DNA of 64,000 nucleotides from Dechloromonas denitrificans (GTDB lineage: Bacteria; Pseudomonadota; Gammaproteobacteria; Burkholderiales; Rhodocyclaceae), in assembly GCF_020510685.1 (NCBI RefSeq), contig NZ_CP075185.1, positions 2,480,001 through 2,544,000 of the forward strand, read 5' to 3'. Shown in pieces: positions 46,535-56,444 of the stretch. The stretch's first letter is position 1. Each line of letters begins with the position of its first letter. Below the pieces are notes generated by a model. The model searched no databases, was not told the origin of the DNA, and worked only from the letters and a program-made list of their open reading frames with translations. Both the position numbers and the translations under genes were made by a program.

Positions 46535-46544
46535 CCCACTCGAT
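46535..46544. repeat. att-like 10-mer at the tadA end of the island
   Basis: CCCACTCGAT, same orientation as the copy in the guaA 3' end. On the minus strand the neighbourhood reads ATCGAGTGGGGAATAA, close to a guaA terminus (Ile-Glu-Trp-Glu-stop) but with one extra G. This fits a displaced attachment site. Confidence 0.6.
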
Positions 46545-46601
46545 TATTCATTGGACCGCCATGAGCTTGTGTTTCCTATGGTGCAGCGATCCATAAAATC
46601 C

Positions 46602-46627
46602 TTCATACCGTCAGAGATACCGTCAAA
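46602..46627. repeat. Island end repeat with two TACCGTCA units (tadA side)
   Basis: Contains TACCGTCA at 46606-46613 and 46618-46625, spaced 12 bases apart. The 26-base segment matches the one at 54641-54666 in 24 positions. Candidate integrase arm-type binding site or excision-factor site. Confidence 0.65.
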
Positions 46628-47417
46628 ACCAGTGAGCCAAAGTGGCACAACATGATACGCCTAGATGGTGAATATCTCAGATATCGTATGAACCACGCGC
46701 ACTTACCTATGCCCCACGCATCAAATGATGCCACAGCTTCGTTCGATATCTACTACCGCGATGCGACGGAGCACCTCTCGACCTCGCATGGATGTTATGC
46801 CTTAAATCCATTTCGCATACAGACAAATCACCCTAGCAGAAAAGCTTGATGATAGGATGGTCGAGCATGAATGCACCGCCGCTCTCGGGAAAGGCGATGA
46901 ACATCATGATAGTACCGAAGCCACAGAATGCGGTAACCCCGATTCGCCTTCGTGCCCCCAGATCCTATTCTGGTAACACCTCAGCGTAACGTGCGAGCGA
47001 TTCGCTCGACCCGTCGACCTGCACTAGTCCACATGCGCACGCTCCATGTTCGTTGTGCCATGACCTACACCAACAACCGCCCATCAGTGTCACTCCACTT
47101 AGGGAGTTCTAGGCTAGGAGGAATTATTAAGGCCTCAAATGAACCTGGACGTCCCGAAGGATTGAGCCTTAGCGATTCCATTCGCCCACGTAACCGAACA
47201 ACCTCAAGCGCTAGTATTCAGGCCCATACTGTTTCAGTCAGTCTGAAATACCAGCGGAATAGGTGGCATGTCACTCTAGCCAGATATCAATCGAGCACCT
47301 CGATTTGCCACAGAAGAATAGGCACTGGGCACTGGTCGCTCATCTGCGAGCCATCTTGCACAGCCTGCCAACCAAGATCGCCCCAACACAGCGCTAGTAA
47401 TTTAAGCTGATGCACCA
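46628..47417. other. Island region without a convincing gene
   Basis: About 790 bases of AT-richer sequence. Short open frames at 46652-46849 and 46952-47410 (plus) have no domain, no good ribosome-binding site and low-complexity composition, so I do not call them. On the minus strand near 47240-47290 the text GCCACCTATTCCGCTGG recalls the tandem terminal repeats of IS21-type elements, so this may be a decayed insertion-sequence end. Another minus-strand stretch near 46850-46970 encodes a hydrophobic 43-residue tail (GVTAFCGFGTIMMFIAFPES) that could be the debris of a membrane protein. Confidence 0.4.
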
Positions 47418-47609
47418 TCAGGCCAGAACGACATCGAAATCCGCCCAGGGAGGGATACTGAAGCTCCTCTCATGCGACTCCATTTCCGCGAACTCCTCTT
47501 CGGACACGCCAAATTTGGAGAGCGCCGCACACCTTGCAAGCACCTCATTTTCTTCCTGCACGGTACCGATATGGCGACCTTCACAAATCACATTCCACGT
47601 CTTTAACAT
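47418..47609 (-). CDS. Small hypothetical protein of the island
   Basis: 63 residues, MLKTWNVICEGRHIGTVQEE then a helical middle (NEVLARCAALSKFGVSEEE) and an acidic, Pro/Trp-containing end. AAGGA lies 9 bases before the ATG, which supports translation. No family is recognised. The beta-strand start and helix suggest a small folded domain. It has no nearby partner within 200 bases. Confidence 0.6.
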   Translation of the reverse strand: MLKTWNVICEGRHIGTVQEENEVLARCAALSKFGVSEEEFAEMESHERSFSIPPWADFDVVLA

Positions 47610-47841
47610 GATTGATTCCTTTCAATTCAATAACGACACGAATTGAGAATCTCATGTGCATATCGCGTTTCAAGGGTTACTTACAGAGCCATTGGGCTGG
47701 TCAGCCAAATTCACACCGATTTTTCCATGCTGGTCCGAGCGGCCACTGCCGCAAGCATCTTCGCGCCTTTTACTATCTGACATAGGCTGCCCGGGCGAAC
47801 CAAGTTCCGCGCCAGGGACGGGTGTTCCCATTCATTTCTAA

Positions 47842-48549
47842 AGAGGAACACCATGTTCGCACTCCCCGTATCCAGAGTGTCGCGCCAAATCCCCAGCCGC
47901 CAGTCTGGTCGTCGATTATCTGTCTTGCCTCTATGGACAGCCTGAACCCAATGCCTGGATCCGGTCGATGGCGCGGATCACTCCTTTCGCCGACGAAGAT
48001 ATACAGTCTGGCATCCGGCAGGATTTCCATCGCTTAATTGCTGACCAACGAAGAAATGCTGCTTTGGCCACAGCTCTGGGAGATTCGTTTACGGGCTTAT
48101 GGGACTTCGTCCGGTCATTTCTGAACAAGGTCGAGATCGAGACCCTGTCTGCGCTTTCACCGGATTACGAGTCGCGAGCGCGGCTCAAAGAAATCGTCAA
48201 TGACACCAAAAGTCACAACGACGAATTGCTGAAGTTGGAACCTGATTTGCTTAAGGCTCTGGCGCATTTCTCCAACGATCAGGCAGGCCGCCTTCTGACC
48301 ATTCACAAGAGTAAAGGACTCGAATTCGATTCTGTCATCGTTCTCGGTGTCGAGAACCAAACCTTCTAGGGAGAAGAAGATGCCGAGCGTTGCGCTTATT
48401 TTGTCGGCATCTCGCGTGCCAAAAGAAGGTTGATATTGACGGTATGCGAGCGCCGAGACACTCCACCATCCAATCCCCGCCGGTGGCAGGAAAACAGAAC
48501 GCCTCATGCCGAATTCCTAAGTTATGCCACACCATTTCTCGATATTTAG
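47842..48549 (+). pseudogene. UvrD/Rep-type helicase C-terminal remnant
   Basis: About 235 codons in one frame with no N-terminal ATPase half. Superfamily 1 helicase motifs are recognisable: LLTIHKSKGLEFDSVIVLG (motif V region) and, after an in-frame TAG at 48367-48369, CAYFVGISRAKRRLILTV (motif VI region). The TAG stands where homologues have Trp (QTF-stop-GEEDAERC), so one G-to-A change (TGG to TAG) would account for it. The frame opens at 47842 after a TAA, without a start codon matching the family. Truncated and interrupted, hence not functional as a helicase. Confidence 0.8.
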
Positions 48550-54471: not shown

Positions 54472-54572
54472 CTAATTTTTCTCCTGATCGAGACGGCAAA
54501 TTGCCGTCACCAATCAAGAGGCATACAGATGCCCGCGAACCTTCATGAAACCTAGCTTCAGGAATCCATTTC

Positions 54573-54589
54573 TACCGTCACAGACGGTA
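54573..54589. repeat. Inverted TACCGTC unit near the integrase start
   Basis: TACCGTC (54573-54579) is followed after 3 bases by its inverse GACGGTA (54583-54589). It shares the 7-mer with the tandem TACCGTCA units of both island ends, so it may be a further integrase or excision-factor site about 100 bases from the integrase start. Confidence 0.5.
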
Positions 54590-54640
54590 TTTCTGTGACA
54601 GCCAAACCCTGCCTCAACGCGGCCTAGCGCAAAGAACTCA

Positions 54641-54666
54641 TTCGTACCGTCAGCGATACCGTCAAA
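54641..54666. repeat. Island end repeat with two TACCGTCA units (guaA side)
   Basis: TACCGTCA at 54645-54652 and 54657-54664, again 12 bases apart, and 24 of 26 positions shared with 46602-46627 in the same orientation. The 54484-54809 interval has no gene and holds this repeat, the inverted unit before it and AT-rich DNA that may carry the integrase promoter. Confidence 0.65.
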
Positions 54667-54809
54667 TTCGTCGCCTGGCAACGCCTGAAGCGTAAGAGCC
54701 TCAGATAAGAAAACAATTTAAATCAACAGCTTATGAGGACTCAATTGCCAGTGAATTATCTTTGCGTATTTATGCAAGGCATTGATTTATATAGAAAAAC
54801 AACTAATTC

Positions 54810-56444
54810 CTACTCCCACTCGATCGTCGCCGGCGGTTTGCCCGAGACGTCATAGACGACCCGGTTCAGGCCGCGAACTTCGTTAATGATGCGATTGGAA
54901 ACGCGACCGAGCAGTTCGTACGGCAGGTGAGCCCAGTGAGCGGTCATGAAGTCGCTAGTCACCACGGCCCGCAGCGCGACGACGTTTTCATAGGTGCGGC
55001 CATCACCCATCACGCCAACGCTCTTGACCGGCAGGAAGACGGCAAACGCCTGACTGGTCAGGTCGTACCAGGTCTTGCCGAGATCGGCTTCGGTACAGGC
55101 GCCGGCCGCCACGTCGCGCTCGGTAGCCACGGTGGCGCGCAATTCGTCGATGAAAATCGCATCGGCGCGCTGCAGCAGATGCGCCGCCTTCAGCGTGACT
55201 TCACCAAGGATGCGCACGCCCAGCCCCGGCCCCGGGAACGGATGGCGATAGACCATCTCGCGCGGCAGGCCGAGAGCCACCCCCAGTTCGCGGACTTCGT
55301 CCTTGAACAGCTCGCGCAGCGGCTCGAGCAGCTTGAGGTGCATGTCTTCCGGCAGGCCACCGACATTGTGGTGGCTCTTGATGGTGTGGGCGCCCTTCTT
55401 GTTCTTGCCGGCCGACTCGATCACGTCGGGGTAGATAGTGCCCTGGGCCAGCCATTTGGCCGACGGAAGCTTCTTCGACTCGGCCTGAAAGACCTCGACG
55501 AACTCCTTGCCGATGATCTTGCGCTTGGCTTCCGGATCGGAAACACCGGCCAGCTTGCCCATGAAGTCGTCGACCGCATCGACGCGAATGACCTTGACCC
55601 CGAGGTTGCGGGCAAACATGTCCATCACCATGTCGCCTTCGTTGAGGCGGAGCAGGCCGTGATCGACAAAAACGCAGGTCAGCTGATCGCCGATGGCGCG
55701 ATGGATAAGCGCTGCGGCAACGCTCGAATCGACGCCGCCGGACAGGCCGAGGATGACCTCATCGGTGCCGACCTGAGCGCGGATCGAGGCAACGGCTTCG
55801 GCAATGTAGTCGCCCATCACCCAGTCGGTGCCGCAGCCGCAGATGCCATGCACGAAGCTTTCGAGAATGGCGCGGCCCTGCACGGTATGCGTCACTTCCG
55901 GATGGAACTGCACGGCGTAGAACTTGCGGTCTTCGTCGGCCATCCCGGCAATCGGGCAGGACGGCGTCGACGCCATGGTCTTGAAGCCGGGCGGCAGTTC
56001 CATGACGGAGTCGCCGTGGCTCATCCAGACTTTCAGCATGCCGTGGCCTTCGGCCGTCGTGAAATCGGCAATGTCTTTCAACAAGGCGGTGTGGCCGTGG
56101 GCACGAACCTCGGAGTAACCGAATTCACGGGCCTTACCGGCCGCTTCGGCGGTCATTACCTGGCCGCCCAATTGCTGCGCCATCGTTTGCATACCGTAAC
56201 AGATACCCAGTACCGGCACGCCCAGCTGGAAGACAGCCTCCGGAGCGCGCGGCGTATCGCCGTCCGTCACCGAACTCGGCCCGCCGGACAGAATGATGCC
56301 CTTGGCGCCATAGTTGCGGATGAAGTCGTCCGAAACGTCGTAGGGGTGGATTTCGCAGAAGACCTTGGCCTCCCGCACGCGGCGGGCGATCAGCTGGGTG
56401 ACCTGGGAGCCAAAATCGAGAATGAGGATTTTCTGGTGAGCCAT
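54810..56444 (-). CDS. guaA: GMP synthase (glutamine-hydrolysing)
   Basis: About 544 residues. Class I glutamine amidotransferase domain with nucleophile Cys in GICYGMQTM and the HPEV region (QFHPEVTHT), then the ATP-pyrophosphatase loop [13 protein letters not shown] and the C-terminal GMPS dimer domain ending in TIEWE. Converts XMP to GMP. The start [12 protein letters not shown] has AAGG upstream; the frame opens further but is not family-like. Its last codons form the attachment site of the island. Confidence 0.96.
54815..54824. repeat. att core at the guaA 3' end
   Basis: CCCACTCGAT, the reverse complement of the codons for Ile-Glu-Trp near the end of guaA. The same 10-mer is found at 46535-46544. 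Reading frame of guaA is kept intact across the junction, as is usual for islands in 3' ends. Confidence 0.65.

Follow-up and report, generated by a model that had tools for sequence, protein, structure and literature searches.

A guaA-class genomic island of Dechloromonas denitrificans with a predicted lambda-like attachment site and arm repeats that track two integrase residues

The 3′ end of guaA is a recognised entry point for genomic islands, including some with resistance genes (PMC9376610, PMC7775301). In the excerpts we draw on, GIsul2 of Shigella flexneri (PMC9376610) lies at this site with GAGTGGGA as its core and carries alpA together with replication, transfer-related and resistance genes, and ICERspD18B of Rheinheimera (PMC7775301) is a conjugative element with a site-specific integrase, alpA beside int and a direct repeat containing GAGTGGGA, for which circle formation and transfer were shown. 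Of the attachment sites, the same excerpts describe the core repeat only. Here we analyse a 64-kb window (G000:C1:2480001-2544000) of the one-contig, 4.62-Mb genome of Dechloromonas denitrificans, in which the sequence strongly supports a genomic island of this known class, site-specifically integrated at the guaA 3′ end, 8,290 bp (8.3 kb) from core to core and furnished with arm-type repeats. The window island shares the site and the core with both elements and the integrase family with GIsul2; its integrase is 57.6% identical to the copy on plasmid R485, which probably corresponds to the GIsul2 integrase. The genes carried by GIsul2 set it apart from the window island, and, in contrast to ICERspD18B, no AlpA was detected in the window island and no transfer genes were found among the nine open reading frames (ORFs) scanned. 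We consider it likely that the island combines a P4-type integrase with a lambda-like attP, belongs to an integrase subclade without detected AlpA and is probably excision-poor.

On the minus strand the genes run guaB (assigned by eye), guaA, island, tadA (named from NCBIfam), and the window GuaA is 92% identical to that of Dechloromonas records L003 and L025 and 94% identical to that of the unclassified metagenome-assembled genome (MAG) L014. Three marks of the guaA-island class are present, namely insertion at the guaA 3′ end with restoration of the gene, a direct repeat of the terminus and a P4-type tyrosine integrase beside guaA. An earlier note made from the window's letters had reported that a 10-mer from the guaA terminus recurs just past the tadA start, and this 10-mer, CCCACTCGAT (ATCGAGTGGG on the minus strand), indeed occurs at exactly two places in the window. 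The guaA-side core (attL; 54815..54824, minus strand) forms the final bases of guaA, which ends IEWE-stop, and the tadA-side core (attR; 46535..46544, minus strand) reads ATCGAGTGGG, then one extra G, then AATAA. Over the 95 bases that lead up to and into tadA, the window aligns with the guaA-tadA junctions of five empty-site genomes, with one extra G in a GGG run, and the tadA-side core is therefore the displaced end of the original guaA; it follows that the island brought the present guaA end with it and that guaA and tadA were adjacent before insertion. The one-base difference previously noticed at this core is real and can be stated more precisely as one inserted G, giving GAGTGGGG where all five empty-site relatives have GAGTGGGA, so that the published 8-mer is exact on the guaA side only.

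Of the 33 guaA regions fetched, drawn from 32 genomes of which 31 belong to the same genus, five (G007, G014, G020, G030 and G032) have guaA and tadA abutting, no more than 60 bp apart; tadA lies 0.85-8.8 kb away in ten and outside the fetched stretch in 18. The ten regions with other DNA between the two genes are what would speak for an old native gap with a chance 10-mer and no inserted island, a view to which we give next to no credence: what precedes tadA here is alignable to the guaA end and the guaA-tadA spacer of empty-site relatives, and the window has arms at both island ends and an integrase at one. The spacing of the two genes is far from constant within the genus; the displaced guaA tail, by marking a former adjacency, refutes this view. 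Nor did a relative with the same 8-kb region minus the integrase come to light, the nearest case being G031, where a fic gene stands at guaA without an integrase but only ~1.7 kb matches. A tRNA as integration target was rejected, there being no tRNA in the window.

Both flanks of the island carry the 26-base repeats described before (46602-46627 and 54641-54666), which are identical at 24 of 26 positions within a wider match of 88% over 32 nt and each of which holds two TACCGTCA units 12 bases apart. The pair on the integrase side, TACCGTCA-GCGA-TACCGTCA (P arm; 54645..54664, plus strand), is recognised from the sequence and from relatives, and its counterpart, TACCGTCA-GAGA-TACCGTCA (P′ arm; 46606..46625, plus strand), lies 84 bp from the far core. 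The window contains nine TACCGTCA units against 0.57 expected from shuffles, and the spaced pair TACCGTCA-N4-TACCGTCA occurs only twice in the whole genome, once at each island end, with no match to a reversed control pattern. The third unit claimed near the integrase start does exist (54573-54580), though it is not inverted, as had been thought, and points the same way as the pairs. It supplies the left half of the 17-base palindrome TACCGTCACAGACGGTA (54573..54589), of which only the right half, with one mismatch, is an inverted unit. This palindrome upstream of int may be an autoregulatory site and is also terminator-like; a promoter scan of 54400-54900 found nothing. A degenerate unit, TGCCGTCA (54502..54509, plus strand), was recognised beside the int start by sequence comparison.

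The scan of islands with similar integrases that had been proposed for the arm unit recovered a conserved array. In the window and 79 integrase relatives, all of them loci whose integrase aligns from residue 1, exact TGACGGTA units occur within 260 bp upstream of int in 79 of 80 cases (the sole exception being L005), at about -38, -109, -173 and -185 or at -35, -107, -130 (inverted), -169 and -181, with a mean of 3.36 units per region against 0.008 in shuffles. Chance repeats are excluded by the shuffles, the whole-genome count and the relatives. At the other Arm-DNA-bind_3 places of this genome (L146, L147 and the fragment L149), no exact copy of the arm motif was found. The geometry is equally constant at the far end, where the pair starts 83-84 bp before GAGTGGG in nine of nine cases (window, L004, L008, L072 and L151-L155), continued as GAGTGGGA in eight and as GAGTGGGG in the window only. 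Five of these, L151-L155, were recovered by searching genomes with a pattern whose spacings could vary over a range; out of 369 genomes in the class, five, with the present one among them, contain the far-end pattern and none the reversed control. In L151 and L153 the far cores are directly followed by the CTATCG repeats of a further element, that is, by tandem guaA islands.

Predicted sites for integration host factor (IHF) complete this layout. With WATCAANNNNTTR, which we take to be the IHF consensus, only two exact matches are found in the 64-kb window, both between the guaA-side core and the P-arm pair (54775..54787, minus strand; 54721..54733, plus strand), and the window scan gave none on the P′ side. 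Among six subclade sequences (window, L003, L004, L006, L007 and L008), the arm-side site is exact in every one, the core-side site in four; more widely, 51 of 78 regions of 345 bp before int contain an exact match, compared with 0.62 in shuffles. Lambda-type bivalent systems have a core flanked by unequal arms with IHF sites, and the window attP resembles them, with arm units on both sides of the core and predicted IHF sites between core and arms on the P side.

The integrase itself (53245..54471, minus strand; 408 aa) consists by Pfam and alignment of Arm-DNA-bind_3, Phage_int_M and Phage_integrase domains. Its catalytic residues, which we take to be R238, K265, H335, R338, H361 and Y371, are all present, as the earlier note had held, and each is conserved in 97% or more of 116 aligned integrases. 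Of the 80 loci, 70 have guaA before int. Among the ten that do not, L022, L040, L063, L074 and L080 have a core ~310 bp before int; in L040, L063 and L080, 10 kb of upstream sequence without guaA suggests tandem islands, and L022 and L074 have little upstream sequence. Two loci show other arrangements: in L043 (9640-10001), also one of the ten, a secondary-site integration interrupts a response-regulator-like ORF (by eye) at TTGGGAG, a partial core, followed by the usual P arm, and in L062 (2900-7212) a full guaA is followed by a second, partial guaA copy before the integrase. The closest counterpart of the window is L003 (uncultured Dechloromonas MAG NZ_CAMFKO010000060.1), with the same guaA-int-xre-fic order, 97% identity in int and 96% in fic, and arms at equivalent places, one unit having one mismatch; it differs in having no second helix-turn-helix (HTH) gene between xre and fic, and its contig ends inside fic, leaving the far end outside it.

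Across the guaA integrases the arms are of two kinds, TGACGGTA in 91 and CATGGTAT in 21, and two residues of the arm-binding domain follow them without exception: positions 40 and 47 are D/R in 91 of 91 TGACGGTA integrases and N/Q in 21 of 21 CATGGTAT integrases, the latter, unlike the window, including the R485 type. For this comparison we left out 35 identical rows, the window's own copies, rows shorter than 180 aa or with less than 150 bp upstream and rows with an unmatched integrase start; near-copies were kept, the window's motif count was entered by hand, and five rows (L005, L188, L189, L196 and L197) have neither motif. Residues 40 and 47 lie on one face of the predicted beta hairpin of the arm domain, and the CATGGTAT integrases mostly differ at residue 42 as well (R42 to S/A). 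The arm domain of the high-pathogenicity island (HPI) integrase (PDB 3jtz, 3rmp) has the same fold, but its aligned residues are K/E, unlike the D/R of the window. In a 46-row integrase tree the 13 CATGGTAT rows form one clade (support 100/100), so that the association reflects one event on one branch. TGACGGTA and D40/R47 are kept in L177 (drawn as sister of that clade, 92/91), in L175 (at an open fork) and in the distant L091, L106 and L186; positions 87, 153, 215, 319 and 350, outside residues 1-83, also discriminate the arm types. Residues 40 and 47 may thus set which DNA repeats guaA integrases read, and the association makes an Arm-DNA-bind_3 recognition code directly testable. The island itself is of moderate interest; this pattern is the part most worth testing. 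We did not find it in the open-licence papers searched, where the TACCGTCA string has, among the matches listed, apparently unrelated uses.

These observations point to the TACCGTCA units as binding sites for the integrase arm domain. They might instead be operators of an island regulator, given that they sit in the int upstream region and that the island encodes two HTH proteins, but we regard this as very improbable: the units are kept in 79 of 80 loci, yet the window Xre and Fic genes are common to only one and two; another pair stands 83-84 bp from the far core; and two arm-domain residues track the unit sequence in all 112 motif-bearing integrases.

With the units assigned to the integrase, attP would have the form P′ arm pair - 84 bp - core - IHF - IHF - P arm pair. 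The P4-type integrase would have recombined it with the last guaA codons, the island restoring the guaA end on its own side and pushing the original tail before tadA. The arm domain would bind the TACCGTCA units, and through those beside int the integrase would probably repress its own gene as well; the overlap of the arms with the int upstream region suggests such self-repression by analogy with IntS of KplE1, for which it is demonstrated in the part of that report we draw on (PMC2951348). Such a defined layout would make both island ends findable by pattern, excision-competent elements distinguishable from stranded ones and integrase-island compatibility predictable.

A further component separates the subclade from most relatives. 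An AlpA protein (PF05930) is encoded downstream of int in 44 of the 60 sequences with at least 3 kb there; no AlpA match was found downstream of int in the window island or in L004-L008, and in L003 just 2.0 kb follow int. Beside the core, CTATCG pairs at exactly 10-bp spacing occur in 62 of the 78 regions before int, with 233 units in one orientation and 2 in the other. The pair, as YTATCG, is present in 41 of 43 AlpA-bearing loci versus 6 of 16 without AlpA (p = 6.6e-6, under a rule chosen afterwards); a first test with a loose threshold (at least two CTATCG) gave p = 0.02 only, and since the loci are related and not independent, neither value is exact. No 10-bp-spaced CTATCG pair occurs before int in the window, L003, L004, L006, L007 or L008, L006 having two single hexamers. 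At the sites of excision factors, direct repeats spaced by one helix turn have been described (PMC7498355, in the part considered), and CTATCG would accordingly be a candidate AlpA site. By eye, the CATGGTAT-type upstream region of L159 (2100-2500) shows apparent TGGCA repeats 10 bp apart before the arms, possibly a second excision-factor site. A joint reading, to which we give an even chance, is that all arm units switched in concert with D40 to N and R47 to Q (mostly also R42 to S/A), these residues reading the changed bases in an unchanged attP layout, and that CTATCG marks AlpA sites, which the window subclade lost together with the gene, becoming an almost one-way integrating element.

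Two features thus predict poor excision, namely the missing AlpA and paired sites and the extra G at the far core. By this G the old stop is shifted, so that clean in silico excision via the 10-bp cores fuses guaA in frame to TadA, and any cell excising the island cleanly would carry this guaA-tadA fusion. The proposal that the module is complete and could still excise therefore stands in part: the island does have an integrase, arms, IHF consensus sites and a core, but neither AlpA nor 10-bp-spaced CTATCG pairs were found, and the extra G would yield the fusion. We also considered a 3,975-bp record, L157 (1-3975; circular plasmid p5 of Sphingomonas parapaucimobilis), as an excised circle caught as a plasmid, and rejected it: it contains guaA, int and alpA, the arms being confined to one side; lacking a far-end arm pair, it is not a clean attP circle, and it may be an assembly product.

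Several observations weigh against an excision-poor subclade of the kind proposed. Unrelated families have AlpA-less subclade elements at guaA (in records of Dechloromonas, Burkholderiaceae and Rhodanobacteraceae), so these elements have moved somehow, and absence of detected AlpA, in 16 of 60 loci, is not confined to the subclade. In the part of the GIsul2 report considered here, deletion of alpA/repA/C left integration working (PMC9376610). L005 is nested in the subclade yet lacks arms and guaA, and far ends were found in only four of 81 sequences (the window and 80 loci), because the sequence stretches often stop before the far end. The window and L003 have in common one CAGGCG pair at 10-bp spacing in the P arm, which could be another factor's site. 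Together with the conserved arms and IHF sites of the subclade and the int, xre, fic order kept in L003, the distribution at guaA and this pair would fit a fully mobile island whose excision depends on some other factor, be it the Xre protein behind int, a protein of the host or an AlpA from another element, and which tolerates the extra G. That alternative seems to us somewhat doubtful, since among the ORFs compared xre is common to L003 only, no hexamer is exactly repeated at 10-11 bp in that part of L004, L006, L007 or L008, and all eight other far cores retain GAGTGGGA. It would also count against poor excision if the extra G were an assembly or sequencing error and the island had two intact GAGTGGGA cores. 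The G does lengthen a G run, and an island HTH gene shows an apparent frame break (51621-52375), but the genome is a single contig and ORFs of at least 120 aa cover 94% of the window outside the island, so that, single errors still being conceivable, we rate this as unlikely.

Judged by its predicted gene content, the island is non-conjugative and defence-flavoured. Among the nine ORFs scanned with Pfam (some small ORFs and PHROGs lying outside the scan), no relaxase or type IV secretion gene of an integrative conjugative or mobilizable element was found, and no structural, packaging or replication gene of a prophage or satellite. Directly downstream of int is a gene for an Xre/HipB-like HTH protein (52748..53110, minus strand; domain search), also present in L003, followed by a second HTH gene apparently split over two reading frames (51621..52375, minus strand), with a Pfam match in its first half only. 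The Fic-domain protein (49926..51479, minus strand) is the phage-defence candidate PDC-S24 (PADLOC, E 3.6e-172). The next gene (48614..49741, plus strand) encodes an orphan of 375 aa, PIN-like by eye only, without a Pfam, PADLOC or NCBIfam match, with relatives in none of 99 other relatives, no match in the plasmid collection and an uninformative single-sequence structure model (predicted local distance difference test score 36.9). A C-terminal remnant of a GajB (Gabija) helicase gene follows at 47968..48369 (plus strand; E 1.7e-44, profile positions 362-494 of 559).

In G031 (L118:1-19801), a fic gene 303 bp behind guaA is 86.6% identical to that of the window over 1.7 kb, and the 17.8 kb that follow guaA there contain neither a match to the integrase nor an exact arm unit nor a second core; L062 has a window-type fic gene behind another guaA integrase; fic is thus recurrent cargo at the guaA site. 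In L005 (10001-15500), whose integrase is 83% identical and stands without arms, core or guaA, the next ORFs look Gabija-like by eye, resembling an OLD-type ATPase and a UvrD helicase. Other defence-like cargo lies ~0.2-3.3 kb behind int in L004, L007 and L008: by eye, ORFs there resemble an AbiE pair, joined in L008 by one that resembles a type I modification subunit.

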